Assembly (NCBI GenBank): GCA_002049455.2
Contig: KV918816.1
Span: forward strand, 186,001-250,000
Length of the DNA stretch: 64,000 bases
From: Porphyra umbilicalis
Lineage: Eukaryota > Rhodophyta > Bangiophyceae > Bangiales > Bangiaceae
Reading direction: 5' to 3'
Made by a program: the position numbers and the translations under genes. Under the pieces are notes generated by a model, which saw nothing but the letters and a program-made list of their open reading frames with translations, made no database searches and had not been told where the DNA came from. Positions 5,892-26,697 of this stretch are shown here, piece by piece (positions within the stretch are counted from its first letter, which is position 1; every line of letters begins with the position of its first letter).

Positions 5892-6536
5892 ATGGCGGAC
5901 ACCCCGGTCACTGTGGCGCCGCCGGAAGTGGCAGCACCCGCCGCCGCAGCTGAGGCCATGCCCTTGTCGTTTGAGCGTCTACCAGCGCTTCTGTCGGACG
6001 CGTCGTTAGTCGGCGCGCCCGCTTCCCCGTAGGCACCGGGGGCGGTCACGAGCGCGTCGACGGCTGGGGCGGCCACAAGCAAGACCACGAAGGGGGCGGT
6101 CACGGGCGCGTCGACGGCAGGGGCGGCCAAGAGCGCGTCGACGGAGGGGGTGACCACAAGCACGTCAACGGCGGGGGCAGCCAGGAGCGCGTCGGTGCCG
6201 AGGGCGGCCACGAGCGCGTCGACGGCAGGGGCGGCCACGAGCGCGTCGACGGAGGGGGCGGCCACAAGCGCGTCAACGGCGGGGGCAGCCAAGAGCGCGT
6301 CGGTGGCGGGGGCGGCCACGAGCGCGTCGACGGTGGGGGCCGCCACCAGACCGTGAACGGCGGGGGGGATCACCAGCCCGTCGGCTGCTGGGGCATCCGC
6401 TGATCCATTAGTGTCGGGTACGCTCAAGGGCTCGCCGGGGCTGAGCATTGACAACATCGACTACAATGAACGGTACGAAGCCATATGCAACTCGGCGCAA
6501 GACTTCGGCGATGTGTGGTCGCTGCGGTCTCGGTAG
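5892..6536 (+). pseudogene. Decayed Ala/Ser/Thr-repeat gene
   Basis: One frame begins at ATG 5,892 (MADTPVTVAPPEVAAPAAAA) and stays in register to the stop at 6,534-6,536. It is interrupted by in-frame stops at 6,030-6,032 and 6,354-6,356. The middle is a nine-residue repeat (A-A-T-S-A-S-T-A-G variants). The tail, G-L-S-I-D-N-I-D-Y-N-E-R-Y-E-A-I-C, looks like real protein. Both stops flank the repeat. It may be a dead gene, or a later exon of the gene ending near 5,855. The product is unknown. Confidence 0.45.
6036..6353 (+). repeat. 27-bp tandem minisatellite, about 11-12 units
   Basis: The unit is close to GCGGCCACGAGCGCGTCGAC plus seven bases, and substitutions keep the nine-codon phase. 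Preserved period with mainly point differences suggests growth while the sequence was still coding. Confidence 0.85.
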
Positions 6537-9403: not shown

Positions 9404-10057
9404 TCAGTTGTAGAACGGGTGCGACTGCAGGAGCACGTCTCGTCCGTCGGTGCCATTGCCGTGCTCCCAGCAGAAACGCAGCTGCACGATGCGAGCTTCA
9501 TCCCACGTGCTCTCGACCAAACGCGCCAAGCCCGCCCTGGAATGGCACAGAATGGAGTCGGCCGGCTCGTCGACGGGCACCATGCCGTGCAGGAACGCGC
9601 GCACCAGCGAGCGGCGCGTCCAGCAGCCATCGCCGACACGATCAAAGTAGTCAAACAAGAGGAAGCGCCAACGTGCCAGCCCAGGCCACTTGTACAGCGC
9701 CTGCGCCAGCTTGACAAGAGCGAGGTTGGTCGCACGTGTAAGGTAGATTGAGGGCTCAAACTTCCGCCAACCACCGGGAACGATCGCAGTCGACGGCGGG
9801 TGCGTCGGGGGAGGAGGTGCTGGTCCGTGCGTCGGCCGCCAATCTGCAGTGGGTGTGGATGAGTCTGCGGTGTTGAACACTGCAACGCAGGCAGCTGCAG
9901 GAAGATGCTCTTGCATGGCGGTGCCCGGCGGTGCTCCCAGCGTGGGGGGTGGTTGCAGATCCGCTGCGTCCTTGGCCTCCAGCCGGCCGGCAAAGAAGGA
10001 GCGGGCGGAGTTCAAGACAGCCGCCGCGGCGGCCTGGGCAGAGTGGAGATGGTCCAT
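9404..10057 (-). CDS. Unknown 217-residue protein or exon
   Basis: The ATG at 10,057 opens a frame with an Ala-rich start, a Pro-rich linker and an ordered C-terminal half. That half contains S-I-Y-L-T-R-A-T-N-L-A-L-V-K-L-A and then W-R-F-L-L-F-D-Y-F-D-R-V-G-D-G-C-W. The mix of aromatic and charged residues is unlike the Arg/Pro noise around it, which is why I list it. I do not recognise a family. It could be a single-exon gene, a first exon or a transposon remnant. Confidence 0.35.
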   Translation of the reverse strand: MDHLHSAQAAAAAVLNSARSFFAGRLEAKDAADLQPPPTLGAPPGTAMQEHLPAAACVAVFNTADSSTPTADWRPTHGPAPPPPTHPPSTAIVPGGWRKFEPSIYLTRATNLALVKLAQALYKWPGLARWRFLLFDYFDRVGDGCWTRRSLVRAFLHGMVPVDEPADSILCHSRAGLARLVESTWDEARIVQLRFCWEHGNGTDGRDVLLQSHPFYN

Positions 10058-10989
10058 GCTCGGTGCGGGGGAGACAGCCGAGAAGACGTGGTGGGACGGC
10101 CGGGGTTGAAATTGAGTGCAGGAAGAGCAGCGGGTGGTGGCCGTCTTGATGGTGGAGGGTGGCCCTGAGGGAACCGGGTGAAGGATGACAGGGAGCCGGA
10201 CTGGCGACCCGACAGCAACGGCGAGTGGTGGAGACGTGGTAGATCGGGGGAGCAGAGAGGGTGGTCGGGGGGTGGCAGCCAGGCGAGTGGGCGGAGGGAA
10301 GGGTTGGCAGCACCCCGATGGTGGGCGTGAGGACTGTGGAGGTTAGAGCGGGGTATGGATTGACGGTCAAGTAACGCGACATTGCTTCTGAACAGACCGG
10401 GGGCGGCAGGGTAGATCGTCACGCGTGCGCACCCGCTGAGCTCTGGCAGGAATGTCACCGCCCCCTTCGCCAAGGAGAGAAAGTGTGGGGCGAGGAAGCG
10501 TGGGCTGATCGTCCAGCATCATTGTAGCCTGCCCGTTCGGAAGATGGTAACAGCCCAGGATGAATGGGACCTCGATTACTGGTGCTTACTTAGGGCGCGA
10601 GGCAGTAACTCTTGTAGGTCCTCGTTGTGAGGCTCCTCTCTTCTTCTCCTGAGAACTGTTTGGCTAGTCTAGTCCGGCGCCTTCCCGGTGCTGGTACTTT
10701 GACACATGTGGATGGCTGTCTGCACCCTTTTACTGGCGCATCTCATAGCTGCGTGAGGATGGCAGTCAGAACGCGGTAGCCGGTGAGCGGCCCTACCCGG
10801 ATTGGAACAAAGAGTGCGAGAGGCTGTGCGCAGGCAGTCTCCGAGCTTCGCTGGAAGGATAGCCCTACCTGAGTGCGCGACGCTCTCAAAGGCGTTGCAG
10901 TGCAGTTTTCCGTCAGGCCAAGCCTGACTTGAGAGTGTACGCAATGACGGGACCCAGCGTTGTTGTGCTGAATTCTGGCCAGTAGGTGC
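10058..10989. other. No supportable gene
   Basis: Only short frames without motifs. The part before 10,500 is GC-rich; after it the sequence is AT-richer and leads into the 317-bp tandem repeat. Confidence 0.35.
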
Positions 10990-11640
10990 TGGTGCTCTTC
11001 GTGGCCTGTGCATCCGGTATGACACCTTGTCCATGCAGAGGCATCCCATAGCTCAAGCGTGTATCCAACATGATACCACTCCATGAAGAGGCTGCCCACA
11101 CTTCAAGCGTGCCAGCGTTTCCACGCTGATGCGTCAAGGCTACAACGGCCAAAGGGATGACAACAGCGATAGGAATAGCGAAACAAGAGCATTGTATGTC
11201 TGCCGAGATGGGCATTGGCGGATACATTTGGGGACAGTGGCCGCACTTCTCCCCATTGAGTACTAGCCCAGTTGACGATGGACGCCGCACCGGAGGCAAT
11301 GCCACCCATGTTGGTGGCCTGTGTATCCAAGATGCTACTTTGTTCATGCAGTGGCTTCTCATATGTCAAGAATGTACCCGACATGATACCATGGCCATGC
11401 GGAGGCAGCCCACAATTCAAGCGTGCCAGCTTTTCCACGCTGACGCGTCAACGCTGCTACAACGGCCTAAGGGATGACAACAGCGATAGGAATAGCGAAA
11501 CCAGAGCACTGTATGTCCGCCAAGATGGGCATTGGCGGATACATATGGGGACAGTGGCCGCTCTTCACCCCTTTGAGTACCAGCCTTGTCGACGCTGGAC
11601 GACCCACCAGAAGCAGTGCCACCGATGTAGCAAGTCTCCA
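10990..11640. repeat. Two-copy tandem repeat, period about 317 bp
   Basis: The block starting gggatgacaacagcgatagg at about 11,154 recurs at about 11,471, and the surrounding sequence matches for most of the unit (for example tttccacgctga and gggacagtggccgc). Inside each unit a motif of about 50 bp (tatgacacc...catgcagaggc...caagcgtg and variants) is itself duplicated, so the structure is a repeat within a repeat. No convincing frame spans it. Confidence 0.75.
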
Positions 11641-11981
11641 GATAAGAATTTTCGACGAGGTAACATCTCCAGATAGGACTTTCAAATGAGATCTCGATCG
11701 AGATAGCAACTTACTCATCAGTAGCACCCATTCTGATTTGCACAGTAGCACCCATTCTGATGTGCACTGTCACCCCTCGTTCAGTTTCCAGGATCCCCGT
11801 GGTCACTCGCTTTGTCGCCTCTTCCGCCCTCGATCCAGCCCGCCAAACAGGACACCCACGCGATTCACTGACTGTCTCGTAGCTCGGTGCCCTGTGCCCG
11901 AGTGCCCGGCAGCTTCAATGGCAGAGCCCGGAGTCGGTGCGCGACCACCGTGGTCGCGGTCGTTGGTGACCGACGGCTGGG
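11641..11981. other. Left flank of the Copia insertion
   Basis: No gene. A 24-bp phrase (agtagcacccattctgatgtgca-type) is duplicated near 11,720-11,765. The sequence ends in the target site ATGGG. Confidence 0.4.
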
Positions 11982-11986
11982 ATGGG

Positions 11987-12359
11987 TGTTGAGCATGGCT
12001 CAGCAATTCCATTTGTCTGTATTTACCCGGTTGAGCATTGGGACTCAGTTTTGGGTATTTACCTATGCACTTGTTGTATGTTTTGTACTTGTGTGTACTT
12101 GATTTGTTGGTCTCGTAGTGGGCACTCTCTGCTGGGGTGAGCTCGGGGGGGGGGACTTGTGTGGGGAGGTGCATGCCCCGTTCTGGGAGGTGCGCCGCGG
12201 CCCGCGCGCACTGAGAACTGAGGCACGTGGGTGTGCTCCGAGAGCGGGCTGCCCGACGACCTGTCCTGGGGCCGCCTGGGGTACATTAGGTGGCTGGACA
12301 CGGCCCAGGACCTCTGCCATAGTAAAATAACGCACCCACTTGACCACACCGACTTCACA
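11987..12359 (+). repeat. 5' LTR of the Copia element
   Basis: 373 bp, TG...CA bounded, almost identical to 17,366-17,737. It presumably carries the promoter and the RNA start, but I could not identify a specific TATA box. Confidence 0.95.
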
Positions 12360-12373
12360 GGTTATGGGCCCAG
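12360..12373 (+). promoter_or_regulatory. Primer-binding site, internal initiator tRNA-Met
   Basis: GGTTATGGGCCCAG directly follows the 5' LTR. It is the reverse complement of CTGGGCCCATAACC, the anticodon stem-loop of eukaryotic initiator tRNA-Met, not of a tRNA 3' end. Drosophila copia is the known precedent for priming by a half tRNA of this kind. Confidence 0.85.
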
Positions 12374-12515
12374 TGTCGCTGGTGGTCATCGTCGTCTTCC
12401 GTGCCGTTGTTGGCGGGACGACCTTGGTTGGGTTGCCGTGTGTTCCGGCGTCGGGCAGGTGGGTATAGCCTCCCACGTCGTCAGTGCCGCGCCTGCTGGC
12501 GTGGTTGTCATCGTC

Positions 12516-15500
12516 ATGTCGGAGTACGGCCGCTACGCTGGCCCTCGCTTCGCGCAGCTGGACGACGACTACAAGGTCTGGGCTGTGTACTGCCGTGCAC
12601 AGATGATCAAGGAGAAGGTGTGGGCTGCGGTTGTGACGGACCGCCCCGCGTCTGGGAGCGGTGCCAAGAGCGACGTTGCAGCTGAGGCGTGGGACCTCAT
12701 GAACGAGTCGGCCCTGGCGACTATCCAGATGTCGGTCAAGCCGGTTCATCTTTATTCGGTGACGGCGGTCAGTACGGCCAAGGAGGCGTGGGATGCGCTC
12801 AAGGACATCTTTGAGGCGCGGGACAACGCACGCCTGCTGCAGCTCATGCATGAGCTAAGCAACCTCAAGAAGGGCAGCGACGAGAACATCATCAAGTACA
12901 CGTCGCGCGCCAAGGGCATCCGTCAAGAGCTCTCCATGCTGGGAAATCAGGTAGACGAGAACACGCTTGTCCTGCAGATCCTGTCGGGCCTTCCGGCCGA
13001 GTATGACATGATCAAGACCGTTCTGGAGAACATGGACGGGAAGCGCAACCTCGCTGACGTGAGCGCCAAGCTGCTCACTGTGGAGCAGCGGGGGAGCCAT
13101 GGGCGGTCGTCCTCGGCGACCGGCGTCAAGTCGCAAGCGTTTGCGGCAACGGCTTCTAAGAAGCCGTGGGACAAGCGCGCGGTCGTGTGCTACTACTGCG
13201 ACAAGAAGGGGCACATGAAGCGCGACTGTCTCAAGAAGAAGGCCGACGACGCCAAGGGCAACAAGAAGCCAAATGGCGGGCGTCGTGAGGGTGGCGGTGG
13301 AGGTGGTGCACCTCCCCGCGCCGCATTGGCCTACGCTGCGTCGGCAGGCCAGGCCGGGAAGCTCAACGCTTCCGGGAGCACCAGCGGGTCCTCGACCTGG
13401 GTGTTGGACTCGTGTGCGACCAACCATATGGCCGCCCAGGACGCGGGTTTCACCGTCAAGACGACGGGGAGCGGGGCCAAGGTCACTCTACCTGACGGCC
13501 ACAAAGTGCCCATCAAGGGGCACGGATACGCGTCCATGGACGTGGGGAAGGGAATCACCACGGCTCGCATGGTCCTCGATGAGGCCATGCTTGTGCCGGA
13601 TCTGACAGACAACCTTCTGTCGGTCCGAGCGGTCGACCGCTGTGGCGGTGCCGTGGTGTTCGTTGGCGACGCCTGCTATATCCTCAGTGATGGGGAAGCG
13701 GTGCTCGCGAGCGGAGTTTTGAGCAACGCGTCTGTCGTCGGCTCGGTCAACGAGTCGGAGAACTACGTGCTCAAGGTGACTCCGGTCACGGCGTCGGCCA
13801 GAGCCGCCTCCACGCACATGGACGGCGAGGCAGAGCTGTGGCACCGCCGGTTCAACCACTTGGGTTTCGAGAACCTCAAGCGTGTGGTTGGGATGGTCGA
13901 TGGGATTCCATCGACGGTAGCCGACGCCAAGCGCGTTCCTGGTACGGTATGCGTGCCTTGTGTCGACGGAAAGATGGCGCGTTCTCCGCATCATCGCTCG
14001 ACAACGACCACCACCAAGTGCGAGTTGGTTCACACGGACGTTGATGGGCCGTTGACGGCGTCGCTGGGCGGCTCTGTCTACTTCGTGACTCTGATGGAAG
14101 ACTCCACTGGGTTCATCACGGCGACGCCCATCAAGTCCAAGGGCATGGTTCCAGATGTCCTCAAGGCCCGCATCAAGCAGCTAGAGACCCTAACTGGGCT
14201 TAAGGTGAAGCGGGTTCGTCACGATGGCGCCAAGGAGTACGTGAGCCGCGACCTCCAAGCCTGGTATGAAGACAAAGGCATTACGTCTGAGAAGACGGCG
14301 CCGTACTCTTCGCAGCAGAACGGGAAGGCAGAGCGCGCCAACCGGTACATCATGGAGCGCGTCCGTGCGGCTCTTCTGGACGCCGGAGCGGAAGAGGAGC
14401 TGTGGGCGGAGGCTTTGTCATCCGTCATCCACGTGCTCAACCGATCCCCCAAGGCGGGTCAAGATGTGACTCCGCTGGAAGCCCTCACGGGGAGACGCCC
14501 CGACGTGAAGGGATTTCGGGTCTGGGGGAGCCGGGCATGGGCTCTGAAGCCCAAGCAGCAGCAGCGAAAGCTGGAACCCAGGACCGACGTCGGCCGTTTT
14601 GTCGGCTACACTGTTGGTGGCAAGGCCTACCGCATCCTAGAGGATGGCTCAAACAAGGTCTTTGAGCGCCGAGATGTGCTCATGGAGGAGACCTCAAGCA
14701 AGGCCATCAAGATGACCTCTATCCCTGGCCCTTCTTCCACCCCTTTCCTGACCAGTCAGACGGATGGTGACAAGGAGGACGGCGCCATGGACATGCTGGA
14801 AGCGGAAGCCGCCAGCGGGGACGAGTATGCCTCGCAGCAATCGTCAGAGAGCGACGTTGAGCCGGACGAGGCTTCCGGACTCGACGCAGAAGACGGAGAT
14901 GACAATGACGCCGGCGAGGACGCGGCGGATCATGATGGACACGACGTGCTGTCTGGATCCACCACAGAGAGTGGTGACGACGGGGTGCAAGCACTTCGGC
15001 GGTCGAAGCGCAAGCCGGCACCCAAGGTTACCTGGTGGGAGCGTAACCCAAAGGCATACGCTGCAGAAGGACCCAAGGGCGGAGATCCGTCGGGATGGGA
15101 CCTGACCAAGGCGCCAGCCAATGCAAAGGAGGCGCGTGCGCGATCGGACTGGCCGCGTTGGAAGGCGGCTGAGAAAGAAGAGTACCTCGCACACAAGAAG
15201 CTTGGTACCTGGTCCAATACCAGGAGCAGCAACAAGCGTAAGGCTGTCAAAACGCGGTACGTGTACGACATCAAGCACGATGCTGAGGGCAACATGACTC
15301 GGTACAAGGCGCGACTGGTGGCGCAGGGCTTCAACCAAGTGCCGGGGCGCGACTTTGATGAGACATGGGCACCAGTGCCGAGCTCGGCCACGACACGCGC
15401 GCTCTTCGCGGTGGCGGCGGCCAAGGACTGGGAAGCTCACCACGTGGATGTGAAGACGGCCTTCCTCAACGCAAAGATGGACAAGGAGATGTACATCAAG

Positions 15501-16700
15501 CTTCCGGTCGGAGCCGAGCCGGGGGAGGAAGGTGATGTCCGCCGTCTGAACCTGGCTCTCTATGGGACCAAACAGGCGGGACGATTGTGGGGCATCAAGC
15601 TTAACAAAGAGCTCAATGCCATCGGAGCGGTCCGGTCCAAGGTGGACCCGTGCCTCTACACGTGGAGCCACCCTGTGCACGGGCTTGTCTACATCCTCGT
15701 CTACGTGGACGATCTCATTGTGGCTGGAAAAAGCCTCGAAGGGGTCCAGATGGTCAAGGCCTCGGTGTCGGCGTCTTTCGACGTGCGCGACATGGGTGAG
15801 GTCAAGGACTTCATTGGCATGAAGGTCATGCGAGATCGGGCTGCCAAGGTGATCACCCTGAGCAATCCGGGGCATGTCAGTTCCCTGCTTGAGGCTTTCC
15901 AGATGGACAAGTCTGCGCCTAACAAGACGCCCATGGTGTCAGGTGCCAAGCTTTGCAAGACGGGGGAGAATCTACTGCCCGAGGGCAACCGGTACGCCGA
16001 GCTTGTTGGCTCGTTGCTGTACCTCTCCACGACGACGAGGCCGGACATTGCCTTTGCCGTGGGCGTGCTGTCCCGCTACATGTCATGCCCCGAGGAGGAC
16101 CACATGCGCGCGGCCAAGGGGGTGCTCCGATATCTTCGCGGGGCTACGCGACTAGGCGTCGTGTACGGCGACGACAAGCCTCTCCAAGGGTACGTTGACG
16201 CAGACTGGGCAGGCGATATTGACGCTCGTCGGTCCACGACGGGCTTTGTCTTCACCCTCAATGGCGGGCCGATATCGTGGACGAGCAAGCGCCAGTCGAC
16301 CGTGGCGACGTCAACGGCCGAGGCCGAGTACGTCGCCGCCGCTATGGCGACCAAGGAGGCGCTGTGGCTGCGCAAACTTCTGTCGGAGCTGGGCGTCGAC
16401 GGGGACGCCGTGCCCATGGGGGAGGACAACCAGGCGTGCCTCGCTTTGGTCAACAATCCCGAAGCCACCGGGCGTACCAAGCACGTAGATGTCGCGTACC
16501 ACATGGTGCGCGACTACGTCGCGCGTGGGGAGGTTGCCTTCTACTTTCTTCCCAGCGCCGACATGCCCGCAGATGGCATGACGAAGCCACTGCCGGCCCC
16601 GGCGTTCACCACATTCCGGGGCGTCATCGGCGTTGGCTCGGATCTGGGCACTTCGGGGAGTAGCGGCACGCGGGCCCTACGTCCTGCGCCGCAGTGCTGA
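12516..16700 (+). CDS. Copia Gag-Pol polyprotein
   Basis: Starting at MSEYGRYAGP, the product is about 1,394 residues in a single frame. Domains in order (approximate residues): Gag; CCHC zinc knuckle CYYCDKKGHMKRDC (about 225); aspartic protease around VLDSCATNHM (about 297); GAG-pre-integrase zinc segment (about 440-490); integrase with H-T-D, R-H-D-G and N-G-K-A-E-R (about 505-605); reverse transcriptase with LVYVDDL (about 1,063); RNase H with YVDADWAGD and TAEAEY (about 1,225-1,290). A single frame implies that Gag is not made by frameshifting; how Gag excess is achieved is not visible. An in-frame Met lies further upstream inside the LTR, but residues from there match no Gag, so I chose 12,516. 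Confidence 0.93.
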   Translation: MSEYGRYAGPRFAQLDDDYKVWAVYCRAQMIKEKVWAAVVTDRPASGSGAKSDVAAEAWDLMNESALATIQMSVKPVHLYSVTAVSTAKEAWDALKDIFEARDNARLLQLMHELSNLKKGSDENIIKYTSRAKGIRQELSMLGNQVDENTLVLQILSGLPAEYDMIKTVLENMDGKRNLADVSAKLLTVEQRGSHGRSSSATGVKSQAFAATASKKPWDKRAVVCYYCDKKGHMKRDCLKKKADDAKGNKKPNGGRREGGGGGGAPPRAALAYAASAGQAGKLNASGSTSGSSTWVLDSCATNHMAAQDAGFTVKTTGSGAKVTLPDGHKVPIKGHGYASMDVGKGITTARMVLDEAMLVPDLTDNLLSVRAVDRCGGAVVFVGDACYILSDGEAVLASGVLSNASVVGSVNESENYVLKVTPVTASARAASTHMDGEAELWHRRFNHLGFENLKRVVGMVDGIPSTVADAKRVPGTVCVPCVDGKMARSPHHRSTTTTTKCELVHTDVDGPLTASLGGSVYFVTLMEDSTGFITATPIKSKGMVPDVLKARIKQLETLTGLKVKRVRHDGAKEYVSRDLQAWYEDKGITSEKTAPYSSQQNGKAERANRYIMERVRAALLDAGAEEELWAEALSSVIHVLNRSPKAGQDVTPLEALTGRRPDVKGFRVWGSRAWALKPKQQQRKLEPRTDVGRFVGYTVGGKAYRILEDGSNKVFERRDVLMEETSSKAIKMTSIPGPSSTPFLTSQTDGDKEDGAMDMLEAEAASGDEYASQQSSESDVEPDEASGLDAEDGDDNDAGEDAADHDGHDVLSGSTTESGDDGVQALRRSKRKPAPKVTWWERNPKAYAAEGPKGGDPSGWDLTKAPANAKEARARSDWPRWKAAEKEEYLAHKKLGTWSNTRSSNKRKAVKTRYVYDIKHDAEGNMTRYKARLVAQGFNQVPGRDFDETWAPVPSSATTRALFAVAAAKDWEAHHVDVKTAFLNAKMDKEMYIKLPVGAEPGEEGDVRRLNLALYGTKQAGRLWGIKLNKELNAIGAVRSKVDPCLYTWSHPVHGLVYILVYVDDLIVAGKSLEGVQMVKASVSASFDVRDMGEVKDFIGMKVMRDRAAKVITLSNPGHVSSLLEAFQMDKSAPNKTPMVSGAKLCKTGENLLPEGNRYAELVGSLLYLSTTTRPDIAFAVGVLSRYMSCPEEDHMRAAKGVLRYLRGATRLGVVYGDDKPLQGYVDADWAGDIDARRSTTGFVFTLNGGPISWTSKRQSTVATSTAEAEYVAAAMATKEALWLRKLLSELGVDGDAVPMGEDNQACLALVNNPEATGRTKHVDVAYHMVRDYVARGEVAFYFLPSADMPADGMTKPLPAPAFTTFRGVIGVGSDLGTSGSSGTRALRPAPQC

Positions 16701-16817
16701 ACCCCCTCGGCGGGGGCGGCCGGTCGAATCGATGTCTACCGAACGTTTCGTCGGACGATCCGATCAACATTGGACGACCGCGTCAATTCGATTTTCGGCT
16801 GGGCGGTAGCCGTTACG

Positions 16818-17262
16818 GCTGTACTGATACAGCTCCAGGCCCTTGCATCGCTACGAAGGCAGCGGCTTGCGTCGCCTTTACGCCGACTGGGTGGCCTGCG
16901 GCGGTCGGGCGGTCGGCTAAGGGCTTCTCCGATGCTGTCCGCGTCGACCGAGGCGGACTTGGCGGACATCGTTTTTTTGTTTTAAGTGGCGGGGGGAGGG
17001 CTGTACTGATACAGCCCCGCTTCATGCGTCTCTACCAAGTCGGCGGTTTGCGTCGACTTTGCGGCGGTTGGGCGGCTTGCGGCGGCCTGGCGGTCGGCTG
17101 GCGGGTGCTCTGATGCTGTCCGAGTCGGCGGTTGTCGACTTGGCGGTGAGCGGTTTTTTGGCCCACATCGCGTTTTGCGGCCAAGTCGGGGAGGGGGGTT
17201 TCTGTATCAGTACAGCCCAAAACTGATATGGCTTCCCGAGGAGGGCTGTACTGCTACAGCCC
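16818..17262. repeat. Four palindromes GGGCTGTACTGATACAGCCC
   Basis: Near-perfect inverted repeats with core GCTGTACTGATACAGC occur at 16,818-16,833, 16,998-17,017, 17,202-17,215 and 17,243-17,262, in the noncoding stretch between the Copia frame and the 3' LTR. They could form hairpins in the element RNA. The function is not known to me. Confidence 0.75.
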
Positions 17263-17357
17263 GGGCCCGAGCAGCGGCGATCGGGAAGCCAAATCAAGCT
17301 GTAAGCCGGAAGCCGGGCTACCTTGCATCCGGACTCCGGAACAGTCACAATGTAATT

Positions 17358-17365
17358 GGGGGGAG
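17358..17365 (+). promoter_or_regulatory. Polypurine tract of the Copia element
   Basis: GGGGGGAG lies immediately before the 3' LTR, the expected position for second-strand priming. Confidence 0.85.
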
Positions 17366-17737
17366 TGTTGAGCATGGCTCAGCAATTCCATTTGTCTGTA
17401 TTTACCCGGTTGAGCATTGGGACTCAGTTTTGGGTATTTACCTATGCACTTGTTGTATGTTTTGTACTTGTGTGTACTTGATTTGTTGGTCTCGTAGTGG
17501 GCACTCTCTGCTGGGGTGAGCTCGGGGGGGGGACTTGTGTGGGGAGGTGCATGCCCCGTTCTGGGAGGTGCGCCGCGGCCCGCGCGCACTGAGAACTGAG
17601 GCACGTGGGTGTGCTCCGAGAGCGGGCTGCCCGACGACCTGTCCTGGGGCCGCCTGGGGTACATTTGGTGGCTGGACACGGCCCAGGACCTCTGCCATAG
17701 TAAAATAACGCACCCACTTGACCACACCGACTTCACA
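17366..17737 (+). repeat. 3' LTR of the Copia element
   Basis: 372 bp, TG...CA bounded, followed by the right copy of the target duplication ATGGG. Confidence 0.95.
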
Positions 17738-17742
17738 ATGGG

Positions 17743-18528
17743 TAGGCTACGACTGGCCCCATCTGCGTGAGGTGAGCGGGGAGGTCCTCCGTTGCGACAC
17801 CAAGGAGGAAGGCCACCACGTCGGGGGATTGTCACGGAGGGAGGTGGTTGATGACGTGCCCCAGCGGGACGGGATTGACGCGTTCCCATGTGACCGTCTT
17901 GACACGCCGGGGGTCCGCTGTGTTTGCCGTCTCTGTGTGTGTGTCTCCTTCGGGAGGCGTGTGGGGGCTTCGCCCTTCTTCTGTGTCGCGTCACATGCGC
18001 GTGGGGGCCTTAGAGGGGTGGGAGCGGCCTCGCTGGCGCTGTTCATGGGGCCAATGTTAGCTTACGTGGCATCCAGGCGGTTGGACGGTGGGTTGTTTAT
18101 CCCGACGGCCTGTTAGGCACCGGCGAAGAGCCCGCTCGCCCGTGGCGGTGGCGTTTGGGGCGGTGGAGAGGGGTTGACCTTGTTCGGCCAGGGGGAGGTG
18201 CGACGTGGTGGGGCGAGCGGTCGCGAGAGTGCGTCCCTACAAACGGCACGCACTGTTCCGACTCTGGTGCTTTGGAGGTCCGATGTGGCGAGGTAGGTGG
18301 CCTCCGTAGCTGCGGCGGTAGACCGTTTCTCTACCGCCGGGCCCCGAGACGCCACGTGGGCCAGCGCTCGTTTGGTCCACTTGCTCCCTGCGTGGGCTCG
18401 AAGCCGCTCGAGGCTCACCGGCATAACCTGCCTTTGGACACGCTTTGAACAAGAAAAAAGTAAAGAAGCACTTGCCCCTTCTCCGCCCTACATTCACAAA
18501 GCCTGCCGCACCACCCGAGTCCTTCACG
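17743..18528. other. Between the Copia element and the KDZ-type transposase
   Basis: No supportable gene. The far end of this stretch is probably the 3' flank or terminal region of the DNA transposon that follows, but I could not find its terminal inverted repeat by eye. Confidence 0.35.
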
Positions 18529-20331
18529 TCACACCTTCTGCATCAATCCAGGCGCCGGCCCAAGTGGCAGTGTCTCTCGGCACGTACAGCCGGGCACCTC
18601 GCAGTGGGCAACGATTGTCTTGTGGTAGTAGGCCTCCACTGGGAAGTGCTGGATCTCTTTCGACCTCTTCTTGACCCCTGCCGCCCGCACCTGCCCGCCG
18701 CTGAGCACAGCGTCCCGGCGCTGTGACACCCGCACGTTATTGTGCGCCGCAACGTAGCGGGAGCGCACGATGAAGCGCTTCTGGGTCATGTATGAAAGGG
18801 AGTTCTTGGACTTCTTCTTAATACTGTGCTGCCGCTCCGCCCCCGACGTGTGATGCCCCCGCGACAGCTCCGGGTACTGGTCCGCATCGAAGGTCGGGGA
18901 GCACTTGTGGTTGCAGCGATGGAAGCGGTCGATGAACCAGGCCGTGACCGCCTCATGAAGAAGCCAGGGCACACGGCGGATGGCGTTGCGCTGCGCCTGA
19001 CACGCGGTGTCAAAGTAGACAACCTTGGGGAAGACCTTGAACCGCTGCGCCAACGCCGCAACGACGTGTGCGGGGCTCTCCGTCTCCCGCAGGAGCTCGA
19101 AGCCAATGATGTAGCCGCAGGGGCACATGAAGGTCATGACGCCCGGTGCTCGCAAAACGTCTGGCGGGTAGTAGTGCCGGCAATCATCCTTCTCCCATGA
19201 CGGCTTGGGCTTTTTCTTCTTGTCCTTGGTTTTTGCCCGCTTGACGGCCGCCTTCTTGCGGTCTCGCTCACTTGTCTTGTCGTCCATGTAGGCGCGCACC
19301 GCCGCCCGCCCAGGCCAAACCTGTCCCGTCCGCTCCTCGTCCAGCTGCGTCACCACCCGGTCGACCGACTCGTCAACCGACGCCATGTCGGGCAGCGGCG
19401 GCGAAACCCCTTGCGCCAGCAGCCAGTCCTGGTACTTCTCAGGGGACGTCTCTTGCCACTGGTCCCGGTACGCCTTGGCATCATCCCCAGCCGCCGCCTC
19501 CCACTTGGCCAGTGCCACCTCCACTGAGTCGATGGAGAACAAGAGCAGCTCGCCAATGGCACGCGACAAATCCCGCGACTGGTCCATGGGGAGCCGCATG
19601 AGCAGCAAGAACTCCCAGATGAACACCACCTGCTGGATGCAGTCGATGTTGTTGATCCACGTTGAGCTCGGCGTGCCACCGATGAAGCTGTGCGCCAAGT
19701 CCACGACGCCGCCCACATTGCACCCAGCAAAAATGTTGAAGGCAGGCTCTGCGAGCAAGGCCGACAGGAACAAACGCACCTTGCGCCACCGATCCTTCTC
19801 CACGCGCTCGTTGGCCGTCGGAGGAAACGCGTCCACAATGGCGACGCACACGAGCGCGGCGCGATTGGCAGCAGCGGCAGGTGGGTCTCCGGCAGCCTCA
19901 GAGTCGGAAGAGGAAGAGCTCTCCTCGTCGCTGGAGGGGTCGGCCGGCGGCCGGGCGTCCGCTTCCGGAGGGGAGGGTGCATCGGAGAGAGGGACCGCTC
20001 GGAGCGGGCTGGCATCCGCGTCGACCTCCCCAGCTGGCGGCGGTGCACCACCGGTAGGATAAGGGGAGGTAGGCGCGGGAGGCGGCGTGCCAGCCGACAA
20101 AGGGGGGTAGGCGCTGGCGCTTGCAGCAGCAGTGGCACGGGTAGAGAGGAGCGAGGACGGCGTCCTCGCAACTGGCGGCGGCGGAGACACGGAGGATAGC
20201 GACGCGGCTTGTCCTGGCAAGAGAGCGAGCACGGGCGCACCAACCGCAGAAGAAACGGCGAATGGCGACAGTTGTTGGGGGGGCACGCCATCAGCGGCGG
20301 TAGACGCCGCCTCTGACAGAGGTCTCGCCAT
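18529..20331 (-). CDS. KDZ/HMGXB3-like transposase
   Basis: 600 residues from ATG 20,331. Residues 1 to about 150 are Pro/Ser/Ala-rich and acidic. The middle (about 160-330) is ordered and helical-looking. A Lys-rich stretch (K-A-K-T-K-D-K-K-K-K) precedes the catalytic part: C-R-H-Y-Y-P-P-D-V-L-R-A-P-G-V-M-T-F (about 385), V-V-Y-F-D-T-A-C-Q (about 438), F-I-D-R-F-H-R-C-N-H-K-C (about 472) and G-A-E-R-Q-H-S-I-K-K-K-S-K (about 497). The spacing and the D-x-A-C and H..NH motifs match the KDZ RNase-H-fold family and the related domain of vertebrate HMGXB3. Near the C-terminus a C-x4-C-x-C cluster (C-E-V-P-G-C-T-C) is present. The first catalytic Asp is not certain; the D in Y-P-P-D is a candidate. 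Unlike typical KDZ transposases, it has no N-terminal Cys clusters; these lie in the neighbouring gene. Confidence 0.7.
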   Translation of the reverse strand: MARPLSEAASTAADGVPPQQLSPFAVSSAVGAPVLALLPGQAASLSSVSPPPPVARTPSSLLSTRATAAASASAYPPLSAGTPPPAPTSPYPTGGAPPPAGEVDADASPLRAVPLSDAPSPPEADARPPADPSSDEESSSSSDSEAAGDPPAAAANRAALVCVAIVDAFPPTANERVEKDRWRKVRLFLSALLAEPAFNIFAGCNVGGVVDLAHSFIGGTPSSTWINNIDCIQQVVFIWEFLLLMRLPMDQSRDLSRAIGELLLFSIDSVEVALAKWEAAAGDDAKAYRDQWQETSPEKYQDWLLAQGVSPPLPDMASVDESVDRVVTQLDEERTGQVWPGRAAVRAYMDDKTSERDRKKAAVKRAKTKDKKKKPKPSWEKDDCRHYYPPDVLRAPGVMTFMCPCGYIIGFELLRETESPAHVVAALAQRFKVFPKVVYFDTACQAQRNAIRRVPWLLHEAVTAWFIDRFHRCNHKCSPTFDADQYPELSRGHHTSGAERQHSIKKKSKNSLSYMTQKRFIVRSRYVAAHNNVRVSQRRDAVLSGGQVRAAGVKKRSKEIQHFPVEAYYHKTIVAHCEVPGCTCRETLPLGPAPGLMQKV

Positions 20332-21550
20332 GTGGGAAAAAGCGGGGGATCGCTACCGGTAAGGGGGCGGGGATGGTGCGCCGTTGGAAGTGTAGGCGTT
20401 GGTACGTGCCGGTTTCCAGCTGCTTGCGGTGCGGGGGAGAGTTTGGAGCGCGCTTAAGCGGTAGATGCACTCGCGGCCGCGTGCCCCCAGTTGGGAGAGC
20501 TGCAAGCGGCCGCCATGACGGTCGCCACGGCACAAGACGGCCGTCGGCCAAGTTGCAGGAGAGGTGGTCGGATGCCCGGTCGACCGGCGCGCATCGAGGC
20601 TGTTGGGGGTGCGGGGGCGGCCTTCGGAGCGCGCTGAAGCGACAGCTGCAATGGCGGCCACGGGCGTCTAGGTCGGAGGGCTGAAAGCGGCCGCCATGTT
20701 GGTCTCCGCAGCGCAAGACGGTGGGGGGCCAGGCAGCAGGAGGGGTGGTCGGATGGCCGATCGCCCGGCAGATATCGAGGCTGTCGGCATCCCGTAGCGA
20801 GGGTAGATCGTCACCGGCAGCATCACACGTGACTGGCAGACAGTCGCAAGGTTGGTCGACCGGCGGACGCGGGTGCCATCTGGCATTCAGTGTCCTCCAC
20901 AGGGGGTAGGGGAACGGGGGCTCATTGGAAGAGGTGAATGCCACAGATGCGAGGTCCCCAACACAATCGCCCGTCAGCAACGCCAAGCCCATGCAGTGCG
21001 GCCCAGATGCATGCATTGGAGGATTGCGCGCGCGGCAAAACCGTCGGGCAACATGGCGCAACCGCCACCAACGTCGGGTGGGAAGAAGGGGAGGTCTGTG
21101 GCGTTCTTTCGGCCGGGGGGAGCCGGGGGTGAGGCGAGGTCTATGAGAGGGGAATAGGGGATTTATCAGGTCTGCACATGCGATGAACACTGATGCTGAG
21201 AGGAGTTGAAGTGTGAGTCCTTTTCAATTGAGAGTAGTGTGGGACTGCTATAGTTGATGGAGGAAATCTCCCCAGAACATGCGCACAGCCAGAGTGATGA
21301 CTCTTTCACAGCGCCCTCATGCAGGTGTTGTTGCAGCGACACCACAGGGGACGACACCCAGGGGACGACTTCCGCCTACCTCTTTCGATGAAAGCACCGG
21401 AGTGGCGTACGAGAGCAGATATGAGCAGGTTGGCATCGGTGGCGTAAGGGAGGTTGCCATGAGACGACCAGAACTGATTCAATACCATGGCAAAGGCACG
21501 CATGGGAACAGAGCGCAAGAGTGAAGGAAAACAAGAAGTCCGGTTTTACG
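20332..21550. other. Intergenic stretch inside the KDZ-type element
   Basis: 1.2 kb without a supportable gene, apart from the 181-bp repeat. An open minus-strand frame crosses most of it but is Arg/Pro/Cys-rich without motifs and reads through the repeat, so I do not call it. Confidence 0.4.
20421..20785. repeat. Two-copy direct repeat, period about 181 bp
   Basis: GCGGCCGCCATG followed by a conserved gcacaagacgg-type tail occurs at 20,506 and again at 20,687, with flanking similarity over most of the unit (both end near tcgaggctgt). It lies between the two genes of the KDZ-type element and could hold promoter elements for the downstream gene; that is inference. Confidence 0.65.
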
Positions 21551-24500
21551 TCACAAAAGAGTGCCTGCCAAGAGCTCGGCTGCCATGCGGCGCCTGTAGT
21601 AGTCCATGCTGCCCGTCATGCTGGCTTGTGGGAGGCCCTTGGACAAGTAGTCCATGGTCTTGACCGTAAACACCCCACAGTCGGTACCGCCCTCTTGCAA
21701 CCGGCACGGCACCCGCGACCAAGTCCACTTGCCGCGCTTGTGGCCGTGCACCGTCGCGTCATCCTTGCCCCACCGCACCAGGCACGCGGGTATCCAGGTA
21801 GGCACGAAGCCCAGAGAGTCATACGTGTCGACATGGCGCCGCTGTGGATAAACGACCCCAAAGACCCAGTGGATCTTGCCAAGGTTGACGGGTACGAACA
21901 CAGCGTCGTACGACTTAAAGTCCAAGCGCCGCGACCAGCGGTACACCGCCTCATAGCTGTACGCCAACTCATCGTTCCTGGTCATCGTGGAGAACATGAA
22001 CGTGTTGAAGAAGTGGAAGCGCGTCGGCCGTTTCTCCACCCCCGCCCAATTCTGCTCCCGTTGCGCCAGCAAATGGACGTACGCGTTGATGGCCTCGTCG
22101 TGAAGCATCACCGCCGGCGCCGTCCGTCGTAGGTCCCACAGCCGGAGTGGAATGTTGCCGATCGTAACGAGCGGCACTTCATGCTGCGGCGCCCGCTGGG
22201 CGGAACCGCGGTACGGCTTGATTGGTGCCGTGGCCAAGAGAGCTCTTGGCGTCAGCGGCGAGCGCGGGTCGGCGGGGTCGCACACCGTGGCCTTGTCAGC
22301 CCCCTCTGCCGACTCGACCCCCAGGTAGCAGAGCGGCGTCTTCCACGAGTCGTTCGAGCGCGGCCCGGCAGCGGCTCTCGTCTCTTGCTCGCCGTATGCA
22401 GCATTGACGACGGGAGATGATGCGACCTCGGCGACGGTGGGCCCATCCAGCGGAATTCGCTCGACGCCGAGCACTCCAGCCGTGAGGATCATGGCACGAT
22501 TGTTTGCCTTGAGAGGTCTGGCGGCGTGGACACGTCGGGCCGCGCGGGCACGTCGGGCGACGTCGGCACGTCGGGCGGCGTCGGTAGCCTCCTCGGTGTT
22601 GGCAGCCTCCTCGTCATCGGTAGCCTCCTCCGAGTCGGTGGACCCCATAGAGTCGGTGGACTCCTTGGCGGCGGTGGACTCCTTGGCGACGGTGGACCCC
22701 TCGCCGTCGGTTGACTCCTCTTCGTCGGTAGACACCTTGCTGTCGGTAGACTCCTCAGCGCCGTCGGCCTCCTCGGCGTCGGGCGCCTCCTCGGCGTGGG
22801 AAGATCTCGCGAGCGACAGTCTCTCAATCTCGCCCGTCACCTCCGCAGCGGCGCCGTTCACAGCTGCGGTGCTCCCGTCCGGCGATCCGCTAGCCGCCAC
22901 GAGGTCAACCATCGACCCTGCGGAGCTCGTGGCATCGCCATCCAGGTCATCACCGTCACTGGCGATCTCAGCTGCAGCGAACAAGTCAACAACTGCGCCC
23001 CCCGCCGGCTCTCTCGATACCACCGGCGCCTGCTGCCGCTCCCCGCCGCCAACCACGTCGTAAAATGTGCTAAAGAGGATGGAAGACGACCACAGAAGAG
23101 CCGCGGTCTTCTGGGTCGGGGTGCGGGCCGCGATGACGTCACGGCCCCCTGTTGGGGGAACGGCCAGCCGCGCGGCTGCAAAGACGCGCCATGCCGACGC
23201 CTCCGCCGTCGTGAGCGCCGTGTCGTCCGTGATGGGGGCGCGCACACGGTTGCGCACTAGCCGCCGCATCTTTGCGCTGCGAAGCGCACATGCAAAAATG
23301 AGGGAGAAGTCCACCCGGGGGGAGTTCATACCTGGCCGCAGCATGCTCACAACGTGCTGCTGCAGAACAGAAAGCACTTGCCCGTCGCAGATCACACAAC
23401 AAAAGCGCCCGCCCGACCGCTCCTCGGCACCACAGAGGTGACACCGGAAGGCGGCGTCAGGGATAATGAGCGTGTGGGAGAACTCCCCGCACGCGTTGGA
23501 GAGCAGCTGTCTTGCCTGACCGGGCTCACACTCCCCGTACGCAGGTGTGTTTCGCAGCAAGCTCGCCAAGTACTCGCTCGCAGCCGTCATCGTGCTGCGG
23601 GCGATGACGCAGAGCTCCAACATCGCGTCGAGGAAGGTGCGCGCGTAAACCGTGTCCCGCGTTGCCACGAAGAGCCCGTTGAGCGCCCCGTCATACTCCA
23701 CCAAGAGCTCACACGTGCTGCAGTACCACTTGCCGATGTGAATCTTGGCCCGCCCACGAATCGTGTACAGCATCGCCTCCTCTGGCTCCACCCTTGTCGA
23801 CTCGTCGCGCACCCTGTTGCACCGCAAGCAAACGGGCTCGGCGTGGGTGTCGCCCATGATCTTAGGCTCGCCCGCCTGCACGCAGGAGTCGATGAAGTCG
23901 GAGTCCTGGTTGCAGCGCTGCACCTCGACCGGGCAGGGAAACATGTTGCGCGACCGCCGTACTCGAAGCGGCAGCGGCGTCGGCGGGGCTACCTCTGCAG
24001 GTCCAGCGGGACTTCCCGGCTCGCCCCCGGGCTGGTCGTCGCCATCGTCGTTCTGGTCCTCGTCGCCGTCGTCAAGGTAGCCGGACGGACCAAACTTGAG
24101 CGATTCCTGCAACTCGGCGGCGGCCGCCGACGATGCCGCCGTCTCCAATCGGTTGTGCTCGTTCACCGCTTGTGCGTGGATGCAGCCCCAGGGGTGGCTC
24201 GCGCAAGATAGAAGGAAGCAGGTGGCCAGCTTGTGCTTGTTGCCTTGGCGCCGCACGATTGCGGGGCTCCAGATGCCTTCGTAAGACACGGCCAGGATGG
24301 GTACATTGGCCTTTTTCCCCGCAAGGAGGGCCAAGTGCACCGCCGTGTCCGCGTGGACGTCTGCCGCAAGGTCTTCGTCGTCGCCCGCCAGGGCTGGGAA
24401 GGCCTCAAGCAGCTCATCGAGGCTCGTCATCTCGTGCTCCGCTGCTAGCCCGTTGTAGGCCATCTGCAGCGCGCTGGCGTGACGACAGGTCGACGACTTT

Positions 24501-25225
24501 CTTCGCGCCACCTGCACGTTGACGTGCTCGATCTTTTCACCTGTGAAGGATCTCCGCCCGCTGCCAAGGACACCGCCGCACGAGCAATACGTGACAAGTA
24601 AGCCACGCTCCGACGCAGACCACACACACACCGGGTCAAAAAGCTCCACAAACACGAGCACACGAGCGCCGCTAACGCACTGGGGCTCGACGCTTGGCCG
24701 ATCATTGACGTTGTCCATGCGCGCCGTAACCATGAGCGCAACGCGCAGCTCGGCCGCAAAGTCGGCGTGCAGCTCCTCGACGGTTAGGGGCGTCGTGCCA
24801 ACAGCGGGCTGCCGACGCGTGCGGTTGTCCGCACTGGTGCTGTCGCTGGCGTACTTGGAGAGATCAACCCTCCGCCGGCGAAGACGCGGCTGCGAGCCAG
24901 CGCGGCGGGTAGGCGGGCGGGTTTGCGGGCGAGTTGTGGGTCCGTCACTTGTGTCGCCGTTCATTGCCTCCTGCAAGTCGGCCATGTCGTGGCCGTCCGC
25001 ATCGTCCACCGCCGCATCCGAGTCGCCGTCCCAATCTTGCCTGCTCATCTCGCCGCCCTCCACCGCCGTCACCCACGCGTCCCGCGCCGTCTCAAAAATG
25101 CCCGAGAGCGACCCGCCCATCGGCTCGTAAGCATCCTCCGCGCGATCAATGTAGTCGGGAGCATCCTCGATGAAGGAGCAGCGCAAACCACTCCTACGCT
25201 GCCCATCGTGGTGGGGCGCCGCCAT
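21551..25225 (-). CDS. SWIM-like/Cys-cluster protein with C-terminal Ulp1 protease
   Basis: I start at the Met in caccATGGCG (25,225); an upstream in-frame Met (25,327) adds 34 Arg-rich residues. Length about 1,224. A SWIM-like zinc motif C-S-C-G followed by C-R-H lies at about 210-247. Paired CxxC clusters at about 465-510 (C-L-R-C ... W-Y-C-S-T-C) and about 595-615 (C-H-L-C-G ... C-C-V-I-C) resemble the CxC5/CxC6 domains associated with KDZ transposases. A degenerate E-S-T-D repeat fills about 770-860. The C-terminal 130 residues are a C48 cysteine protease: H in I-H-W-V-F-G-V (about 1,119), D in V-D-T-Y-D-S-L-G (about 1,134) and C in G-G-T-D-C-G-V-F (about 1,183), with an upstream Gln, so the triad is complete. 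It would cleave SUMO-like or polyprotein substrates; the substrate is not known. Confidence 0.75.
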   Translation of the reverse strand: MAAPHHDGQRRSGLRCSFIEDAPDYIDRAEDAYEPMGGSLSGIFETARDAWVTAVEGGEMSRQDWDGDSDAAVDDADGHDMADLQEAMNGDTSDGPTTRPQTRPPTRRAGSQPRLRRRRVDLSKYASDSTSADNRTRRQPAVGTTPLTVEELHADFAAELRVALMVTARMDNVNDRPSVEPQCVSGARVLVFVELFDPVCVWSASERGLLVTYCSCGGVLGSGRRSFTGEKIEHVNVQVARRKSSTCRHASALQMAYNGLAAEHEMTSLDELLEAFPALAGDDEDLAADVHADTAVHLALLAGKKANVPILAVSYEGIWSPAIVRRQGNKHKLATCFLLSCASHPWGCIHAQAVNEHNRLETAASSAAAAELQESLKFGPSGYLDDGDEDQNDDGDDQPGGEPGSPAGPAEVAPPTPLPLRVRRSRNMFPCPVEVQRCNQDSDFIDSCVQAGEPKIMGDTHAEPVCLRCNRVRDESTRVEPEEAMLYTIRGRAKIHIGKWYCSTCELLVEYDGALNGLFVATRDTVYARTFLDAMLELCVIARSTMTAASEYLASLLRNTPAYGECEPGQARQLLSNACGEFSHTLIIPDAAFRCHLCGAEERSGGRFCCVICDGQVLSVLQQHVVSMLRPGMNSPRVDFSLIFACALRSAKMRRLVRNRVRAPITDDTALTTAEASAWRVFAAARLAVPPTGGRDVIAARTPTQKTAALLWSSSILFSTFYDVVGGGERQQAPVVSREPAGGAVVDLFAAAEIASDGDDLDGDATSSAGSMVDLVAASGSPDGSTAAVNGAAAEVTGEIERLSLARSSHAEEAPDAEEADGAEESTDSKVSTDEEESTDGEGSTVAKESTAAKESTDSMGSTDSEEATDDEEAANTEEATDAARRADVARRARAARRVHAARPLKANNRAMILTAGVLGVERIPLDGPTVAEVASSPVVNAAYGEQETRAAAGPRSNDSWKTPLCYLGVESAEGADKATVCDPADPRSPLTPRALLATAPIKPYRGSAQRAPQHEVPLVTIGNIPLRLWDLRRTAPAVMLHDEAINAYVHLLAQREQNWAGVEKRPTRFHFFNTFMFSTMTRNDELAYSYEAVYRWSRRLDFKSYDAVFVPVNLGKIHWVFGVVYPQRRHVDTYDSLGFVPTWIPACLVRWGKDDATVHGHKRGKWTWSRVPCRLQEGGTDCGVFTVKTMDYLSKGLPQASMTGSMDYYRRRMAAELLAGTLL

Positions 25226-25329
25226 GGTGTCACCCACACCAGTAGAGGCACGGCCGCGCCGGTGGCAGCGTAGGCTCGCCACTTGCAGGAGCAGCGTCGA
25301 GCGGCAGCCACGCCAGAGCCGCGGCACAC

Positions 25330-25760
25330 ACGACGGCGTCGGCGGTGGCGAGGTCGGGAGGAGCAGGGGGCGGAAACAGGGACCGAGGGCGGCGGACCCG
25401 GGGTGGCGGCGCTAGTGTCGGCGGTGGCAGCGGCGGCGGCCGCGGCGGCCGCGGGGGGCGGCCACGGCCGCCGCGGCCGCCGCGGCGGCCGCGGCTGGCA
25501 CCCACGGCCACGGCTGGCCGGGGGCGTCGGCGGGGGGTGGTAGCGGGGGGTGGGGGTGGGGGGGGGGCGGCGGCGGCGGCAGCGGCGGCCGGGGCGGGGG
25601 TGGCGGCGGCCGCGGTGGGGGGCGGGGGCGGCCCGGCCAGGGGTGGGTCCGCGCGGGCGGGGATGGGGGCGGCGCGGCCGGGGGTAGGAGCACGGGGCCG
25701 CGATCGGAGGCTGCGTGGCCTGGGGCGGGGTCGACGCGGCGGGGTGCGGCGGCGGCGTGA
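25330..25760. other. GC-only low-complexity tract
   Basis: Almost pure G/C with CGG/GGC runs. Frames on both strands are open only because stops are rare. No motif. It lies just upstream of the Ulp1 gene and may be its leader or the element end. Confidence 0.5.
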
Positions 25761-26697
25761 CCGGCGGCGAGCGGGCGCGCGCGCGCACGATTGTGGGACG
25801 CCGCGGTGTGCTGGTGGGTGCTGCGTGGAGGGCAGCCAGCGGCGCCTCAGCGATGTGCAATCTCGCTGGGGCCGCCAGGGTGGCGGATTGGCAGCATGAA
25901 TGAAGATTCACGTGGCGCAGACTCTTGCACTGATTCTAGCGTTGGCGCCCGAACGGATGGACAGGAAGGCGTGCCGGCACCGCACGCGATTGGAGGATGG
26001 GAGTGGTGGTACCGATCGTGCGGTTCTGGATGGGCTGGGGTCGGCAAAGTTCACAAGATGTGGTCCAATCAGCGCGGGCGGCGCGACCCGTGCGGGCCAC
26101 AAAAAGACGACCCTCGAATTGTGGGGTGTGGGACGCCAGAATGTGACCATCAAAGCATGAAAGGTGACCCAGAGCCGTCGATAACACCCCCCCAGATAAG
26201 CCGGAATGAGGTGTATTTCTGGCAGCTGATTGGTCCTCGTTCTGGCATGGCCACACTGGCACCGAATGGCCGGTGCCAAAGTGCGATTCCAGCGCGTAGA
26301 GGCCGACGATGCAGCGCCCAGAAGCCTGTGCACCGGACGTGCCAGTGAATTGGAGAAGTTCCTTTGTGGCGTTTCGGGCGTCATACCGGCGTTATGCGAG
26401 GCGATGATGGAGTCTGCGAACGGGCCTCAGAGGCCATCCCATGCGAGGTCCTTGCATATTTGTGTTCGCGAGAACAGGAATCGTTCCTCACTCCACACAT
26501 AGCGCCTGCTAGCAGGGCCATAGATGCTTCTCCATCTCTCTCTCTGGAAGGGTGAAGTGTATACGTCTTATGCTATGTCTCTCTTTTTACGAGTGGAGAG
26601 GCATCTATCCCGGCGAACAGATGATTTTTGCGCCCTTGCTGGAAAAAAAACAGCTTTGACAGAGCCGCAGGGTGGTTCGCAGATTATCTGTTCGCCT
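25761..26697. other. No supportable gene
   Basis: Short frames without motifs; composition falls toward AT after about 26,400. Confidence 0.35.

Follow-up and report, generated by a model that had tools for sequence, protein, structure and literature searches.

The KDZ (Kyakuja-Dileera-Zisupton) cut-and-paste transposons include Zisupton, known from fish and other organisms, in which a single gene reportedly encodes everything, with the Ulp1 domain placed C-terminal to the transposase core. More generally, DDE transposases, retroviral integrases and RAG1 are, to our knowledge, taken to carry the acidic triad in one chain. Here we describe an element from the red alga Porphyra umbilicalis that, on the homology of its core and on its ends, belongs to KDZ and appears to depart from the canonical one-polypeptide layout. 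It lies in a window of 64,000 nucleotides (NCBI GenBank assembly GCA_002049455.2, contig KV918816.1, forward strand; contig 56, 186001-250000, of the 83.8 Mb assembly that we searched). We consider it rather likely that this is a giant KDZ transposon whose transposase gene underwent fission inside the catalytic domain, with the D-D-E site assembled in trans. It resembles Zisupton in its KDZ-type core, candidate zinc/Cys modules, Ulp1 domain, inverted repeats and a target duplication of, probably, 8 bp, but whereas Zisupton is said to use one gene, here the half with the first catalytic aspartate (D1) is joined to Ulp1 in one gene and the half with the second aspartate and the glutamate (D2/E) occupies another.

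In the literature, Zisupton duplicates 8 bp of its target; Kyakuja has CA..TG ends and a target site duplication (TSD) of 7 bp with no inverted repeats; Dileera has a TSD of 8 bp; and fungal families carry TET/JBP genes (PMC12730594). KDZ1 of Cryptococcus combines an 8-bp TSD with a CxC1 cluster and 241-bp inverted repeats (PMC12810828), and giant KDZ elements are described from the algae Ectocarpus, where they contain additional genes and nested insertions, and Chlamydomonas, with an element of 31.7 kb (PMC12477816). Like the present element, the fungal and Cryptococcus ones have KDZ transposases, Kyakuja has comparable CA..TG ends and the giant algal elements are alike in size, but the parts of these papers available to us mention neither a split core for the former (PMC12730594, PMC12810828) nor a two-gene splitting of the transposase for the latter (PMC12477816). 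More broadly, we recognised no description of a DDE core encoded by two genes in the literature searched, which included parts of PMC12730594, PMC12477816, PMC12810828 and PMC8226300 and came mostly from outside the subscription journals. Other comparable genes lie in the same genome: its one-protein KDZ transposases (C162, C145, C172, C342, C24, C222 and others) are colinear with the N-terminal half of gene A plus gene B, but hold D1 and D2/E in one frame and either lack Ulp1 or carry it behind the core or on the opposite strand.

Architecture of genes A and B

The sequence-only reading of this DNA had proposed a two-gene KDZ transposon with a C48 protease in the upstream gene of the same strand, and this was borne out, with both open reading frames (ORFs) found where it had placed them and B 1.2 kb downstream of A. 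The open frame of A spans 21551-25411 on the minus strand, with its first ATG at 25225; residues of A are counted from the stop-to-stop frame at 25411, ATG-based numbers being lower by 62. The features of the two genes are:

21551..25225, minus strand: gene A, with SWIM, CxC4-like cluster, conserved Asp, variable linker and Ulp1/C48 in this order (ORF, Pfam, codon-position bias)
24479..24586, minus strand: SWIM-like motif of A, residues 276-311 (alignment of copies)
23585..23845, minus strand: CxC4-like Cys cluster of A, residues 523-609 (Pfam, sub-threshold)
23384..23386, minus strand: codon of A Asp676 (DGQ), proposed D1 (conserved across two-gene and one-protein rows)
21575..22105, minus strand: Ulp1/C48 protease domain of A (Pfam Peptidase_C48)
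20332..21550, minus strand: stretch between A and B, apparently non-coding (no codon-position bias)
18529..20331, minus strand: gene B, 600 aa, with a variable Ser/acidic N-terminus, a helical insert and a KDZ core with D2 and E (ORF, KDZ homology, codon constraint)
19009..19011, minus strand: codon of B Asp441 (YFDTAC), proposed D2 (conserved across two-gene and one-protein rows)
18835..18837, minus strand: codon of B Glu499 (AERQ), the candidate for the catalytic E, located 58 residues beyond D2 (conserved in the same rows)

The N-terminal SWIM pattern of A (C276-x-C...C309-x-H), recognised by eye, retains its CxC in 9 and its CxH in 10 of the 11 aligned copies (the alignments of A and of B each hold 11 of 18 copies, picked for long open frames). 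It is followed by a Cys cluster that Pfam matches to CxC4 below the cut-off (E 3.9e-5, 24.0 bits against 26.9). The CxC5, CxC6 and SWIM profiles gave no Pfam match in A at E up to 10, and of the motifs read earlier from the letters the SWIM and a Cys cluster, the latter as CxC4, are kept, whereas the CxC5/CxC6 assignment is dropped. At the other end of the protein, residues 1103-1279 match Peptidase_C48 (E 3.5e-22, 79.8 bits, cut-off 20.7), and H1181, D1198, Q1239 and C1245 are present in all 10 rows that cover them, the protease thus looking intact.

The B protein of the window matches, with E 2e-24 to 4e-33, ten fetched loci (L009-L018) whose own Pfam KDZ scores are above the cut-off, and because of these matches we take B, on sequence grounds, to be a KDZ homologue. 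The B protein of a further copy, L022, gives a direct but sub-threshold match to the KDZ profile (PF18758; E 1.2e-4, 22.3 bits, cut-off 26.6), and that of L019 gives none. No relatives of B were found in collections of viral contigs, genome contigs and phages, which hold few eukaryotes. The N-terminus of B is variable except for an acidic/Ser block directly before the core, which recurs in L037, L026, L035, L028, L029, L030 and the window and is possibly a phosphorylation or SUMO-interaction site.

The place of the break emerges from the one-protein ORFs, which are colinear with A 553-793, then B 161-600 and then, if Ulp1 is present, A 1071-1286. The closest of those examined, C222 (the sole fetched member of its group, which has 35-44% identity to B, against 26-44% for the one-protein forms overall), is a single ORF of 1287 aa in which the counterpart of A 246-805 (E 2e-43) runs directly into that of B 177-587 (37% identity, E 1e-88). 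In a joint alignment, A Asp676, B Asp441 and B Glu499 are common to 10 two-gene and 9 one-protein rows: Asp676 aligns with the Asp of IVIDGQALG (VVADGQTIG in C222), and Asp441 and Glu499 with YD.AC and AE, respectively. Wherever D2 and E could both be located in a one-protein ORF, they are spaced by 58 residues; D1 and D2 lie 431-473 residues apart in the one-protein ORFs, with a long insert between them. The colinearity and the single frame of C222 indicate a fission inside this insert. Its position and conservation make A Asp676 the most likely catalytic D1, which would place the break inside the catalytic domain itself. The D1 candidate is in A and D2/E are in B, in place of the D-D-E within one polypeptide of the canonical KDZ form, and Ulp1 follows the D1 segment in A instead of standing C-terminal to the core in the same protein as in Zisupton. 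The earlier suggestion that the SWIM, Cys-cluster and Ulp1 parts act from a separate protein holds in that they are encoded apart from the core, but A is probably not an accessory protein; its homology points to the N-terminal half of the transposase.

Recurrence of the split order and coding constraint

Across the genome, manual merging of pieces of the same locus reduced 116 matches to the D1 segment to 104 loci, and 101 B matches were merged likewise, all counts below being lower bounds; all but the 12 weakest of 114 C48 matches were used for the order analysis. At least 32 of the 104 loci have the split order, namely the D1 segment with Ulp1 0.5-1.0 kb on and the B core 2.4-5.3 kb on. At least 43 others are contiguous, with the core within 1 kb after the D1 segment; among the matches listed, 30 of these show no Ulp1 downstream, 10 have Ulp1 after the core and 3 have it on the opposite strand. 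In 16 loci Ulp1 lies 1.9-3.6 kb on with no B among the matches listed, and 8 of these look like one-protein forms because a Pfam KDZ match falls between the D1 segment and Ulp1. Among the same matches, the remaining loci have Ulp1 near and no B (3, one of which, C106, holds B remnants), B 1.3-6.6 kb on without Ulp1 (3) or neither (7), and 11 B loci lack a D1 segment. When 20 stretches were fetched around C48 matches, A followed by B on the same strand was found in 17, some of them remnants, and not in the other 3. In a tree of 25 rows, a branch with 100/100 support divides 12 rows from 13, with the B proteins of split copies on one side and one-protein forms on the other; as the tree program warned, long branches meet there. 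These observations indicate, at the level of sequence, that the split is a lineage and not an accident. In C28, C187 and C419 the one-protein KDZ gene and a C48 protease lie on opposite strands some 3 kb apart, a third pairing of Ulp1 and KDZ in the same genome.

Comparison of the window with L029, L030 and L032 (B 381-600 being mostly deleted in L030) revealed an excess of third-position substitutions in A 1-800, the Ulp1 domain and B 151-600, and little or no codon-position bias in the intergenic stretch, the A linker and, in the close pairs, B 1-150. Two simple origins of the arrangement were considered and rejected: chance ORFs are ruled out by the joint conservation of A and B in many copies with codon-position bias, and a single gene broken by a stop is ruled out by the 1.2 kb of unconstrained DNA between A and B and by the recurrence of the order in 32 loci.

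Extent, movement and contents of the element

Beyond its two genes, the element has defined ends with terminal inverted repeats (TIRs), a target duplication and further long ORFs, as follows:

970..26368, minus strand (that of genes A and B): whole KDZ-type transposon, 25.4 kb (TIRs, target duplication, five paralogous empty sites)
970..1094, plus strand: TIR of the element's 3' end, beginning CACAGGAACTTCT (70% complementary to 26242-26366)
26242..26368, minus strand: TIR of the element's 5' end, beginning CACAAAGGAAC on the minus strand (sharp boundary, 7 copies)
961..969, plus strand: target site duplication GCGTTTCGG, 8 or 9 bp (repeated at 26369-26377)
26369..26377, plus strand: second copy of target site duplication GCGTTTCGG (flanks compared with empty sites)
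1677..5342, plus strand: gene C, third of the element's long ORFs, 1221 aa, largely low-complexity with a proline-rich middle (no Pfam match)
11987..17737, plus strand: copia long terminal repeat (LTR) retrotransposon nested in the element, 5.75 kb (LTR pair, Pfam RVT_2/gag/rve, 5-bp target duplication ATGGG)

The TIRs are imperfect (125 bp, 70%). The 5' boundary is sharp in the window and in L026, L028, L029, L030, L032 and L037, the last with the end CACAAATGTAC, which differs from CACAAAGGAAC at two positions; related ends are also present in three distant copies. The 3' end recurs in C10 (L041) and, as CCCAGGAAC, in C257 (L047). The element is inserted in a different, short repeat that is present many times in the genome (window 900-969 and 26378-26477), and all five copies of this surrounding repeat examined (L042-L045, L050) run through the joined flanks with few differences and a single copy of GCGTTTCGG, which makes them paralogous empty sites. 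At C257, ACTTTGAG stands at both ends, exact over 8 bp with a differing ninth base; the target duplication is therefore probably 8 bp, in which case the window element may start at 969 instead of 970. Defined ends with a duplication of 7-8 bp are those of the KDZ type. A 3' end with target duplication was sought and not found in C32 and C158, nor was one present within the fetched stretches of L019, L021 and L027. The sequence-only reading had called for further copies with the same two-gene order and shared ends, TIRs and target duplications, and these exist; it had overlooked the 25.4 kb size, the third conserved ORF, the nested copia element and the break within the catalytic domain.

Two pairs of split copies speak for recent movement. 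The C60 copy, with A and B intact, is 98.0% identical to that of C11 over 9.0 kb, and the C181 copy, likewise intact, is 97.7-98.6% identical to that of C88, the 5' flanks being unrelated within each pair. Copies about 98% identical in different flanks imply that the family moved fairly recently, and we infer that its own split transposase performed the movement. A further pair, C475 and C60 (99.5% over 9.0 kb, A and B open in both), was set aside as evidence, since the C475 contig ends 4 bases past the element and the two may be one insertion assembled twice.

As to the other contents, the region of gene C has DNA matches at C10, C32, C158, C257, C152, C565 and C109. The nested copia element has one long ORF (RVT_2, E 2e-55) and LTRs that are about 98.7% identical, and its last 740 bases have some 30 genomic copies at 96-99% identity; it is no part of the transposon mechanism. 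Also inside the transposon, an ORF at 5843-6457 (minus strand) has a 27-residue match to Se-cys_synth_N (E 1.1e-8), too short to name the gene. Outside it, a 227-bp direct repeat of 72% identity lies close to the element (26753-26976 and 27880-28103), and positions 34001-64000 are very GC-rich (25 of 30 one-kb bins above 70%, maximum 89%), with long overlapping ORFs in several frames that are probably for the most part not genes. Elsewhere in the genome, C352 (42685-62356) holds two KDZ 5' halves, inverted and facing outward, whose outer 5' ends have different flanks; this rearranged pair is thus not one clean insertion.

Proposed mechanism, rival explanations and significance

We propose that the one-protein form is ancestral, that it broke within the long insert that separates D1 from D2, and that Ulp1 became joined to the D1 half. 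A and B would then be translated separately from neighboring genes and assemble, with A providing the first RNase-H strand with D1 along with SWIM and Cys-cluster modules that may bind DNA or protein, and B providing the insert, D2 and E, such that the D-D-E site would exist only in the heteromer. The heteromer would cut at the CACA..TGTG ends, leaving 8-bp duplications, while Ulp1 might take SUMO or a related tag off the transposase, the transpososome or nearby chromatin proteins; as both A and B would have to be present, cutting would be tied to their co-expression. That the RNase-H domain is naturally divided between a D1, SWIM, zinc-cluster and SUMO-protease protein and a D2 and Glu protein, with an active site in trans for which both genes are needed, is a proposition toward which we lean on balance.

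Several observations weigh against this proposal. The earlier expectation of a KDZ profile match for the 600-residue protein failed, as the B protein of the window has no Pfam match at E up to 10, its KDZ homology coming instead from the matching loci and L022. Two AlphaFold models are poor (mean pLDDT 54.9 and 51.2; most of the RNase-H part falls under 50), and a Foldseek search of the PDB with the first of them returned nothing at E 0.001; two sequence searches of the PDB likewise returned nothing usable. Given the lack of codon bias in B 1-150 and the A linker, the case that these parts are translated comes from their open frames and the scarcity of indels. In 2 of 18 copies (L031, L032) there is no in-frame ATG upstream of B160, and in four copies (the window, L028, L031 and L032) a different frame stays open further upstream of this point than the coding frame does. 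Among the recently moved copies, that of C11 has stops in B and that of C88 a frame break in A. Finally, B itself contains an Asp383 (D-x-C) that is as conserved as the D1 candidate across two-gene and one-protein rows, and other KDZ genes of this genome seem to have introns, since in L051 and L052 the SWIM and KDZ parts are in different ORFs.

The introns bear on the possibility that the split is only apparent, with alternative splicing joining A (to about residue 800) to B and removing Ulp1, and the unspliced message giving a SWIM-CxC-Ulp1 protein. Such a fusion mRNA is conceivable given the introns, would match the layout of the C222 protein, and agrees with the retention of GT dinucleotides at A682 and A786 in all 11 aligned copies; moreover, the Ulp1 domain of fish Zisupton is said to reside in a splice isoform. 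We nevertheless regard it as unlikely. A strong splice-donor match in the 360 nt after A786 occurs in 2 of 11 copies, compared with means of 1.1-2.1 per control window, which leaves a fusing intron seemingly without a conserved donor at its expected start, and the AG dinucleotides conserved in B (in at least 10 of 11 rows) fall within the core (B179-222) and not before it. Across 18 copies, the coding frame runs open for a median of 195 codons upstream of B160, the medians of the other frames being 23 and 62; 16 of the 18 have an in-frame ATG there, and the acidic/Ser block recurs before the core. Indels are multiples of three in 9 of 26 cases in the stretch between A and B (three pairs) and in 3 of 3 in B 1-150, all of the latter in the window-L032 pair. 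The open-frame, indel and donor data favor separate A and B proteins, as far as the sequences can tell.

It is quite improbable, in our estimate, that B alone is the complete transposase, with its Asp383 or another Asp as the first catalytic residue and A as an accessory DNA-binding SUMO protease. Other eukaryotic DNA transposons do have accessory proteins, and the conservation of Asp383 fits this notion; however, the segment around A Asp676 belongs to the nine aligned one-protein KDZ transposases and C222, where it precedes D2 as expected of D1, and the D1 half of A is under codon-position constraint. Further, Asp383 seems to lie in a loop-like sequence about 15 residues before the strand-like GVMTFMC, whereas the Asp of DGQ appears to end a hydrophobic, strand-like stretch in the one-protein forms (FVVIDG). 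Hardly credible is the idea that these are defective elements, split through decay and mobilised in trans by intact one-protein relatives. Many copies do contain stops, and for the giant elements of Ectocarpus, KDZ included, one study reports frequent transposase pseudogenes and mobilisation in trans (PMC12477816). Against this stand the same order in at least 32 loci, the grouping of split-copy B proteins on one side of a tree branch, codon-position constraint in both A and B, the intact genes of C60 and C181 with their close relatives in other flanks, and the strong divergence of the one-protein forms from B.

If the fission reading is right, the element would be a naturally split DDE recombinase, and this recently mobile two-gene family would show that nature can build an RNase-H fold out of two chains. 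DNA cutting would be physically tied to a SUMO protease and would be under a built-in two-key control, which would be of use for split-transposase tools. The presence of one-protein, Ulp1-tailed and split forms in one genome makes the path of the fission traceable.

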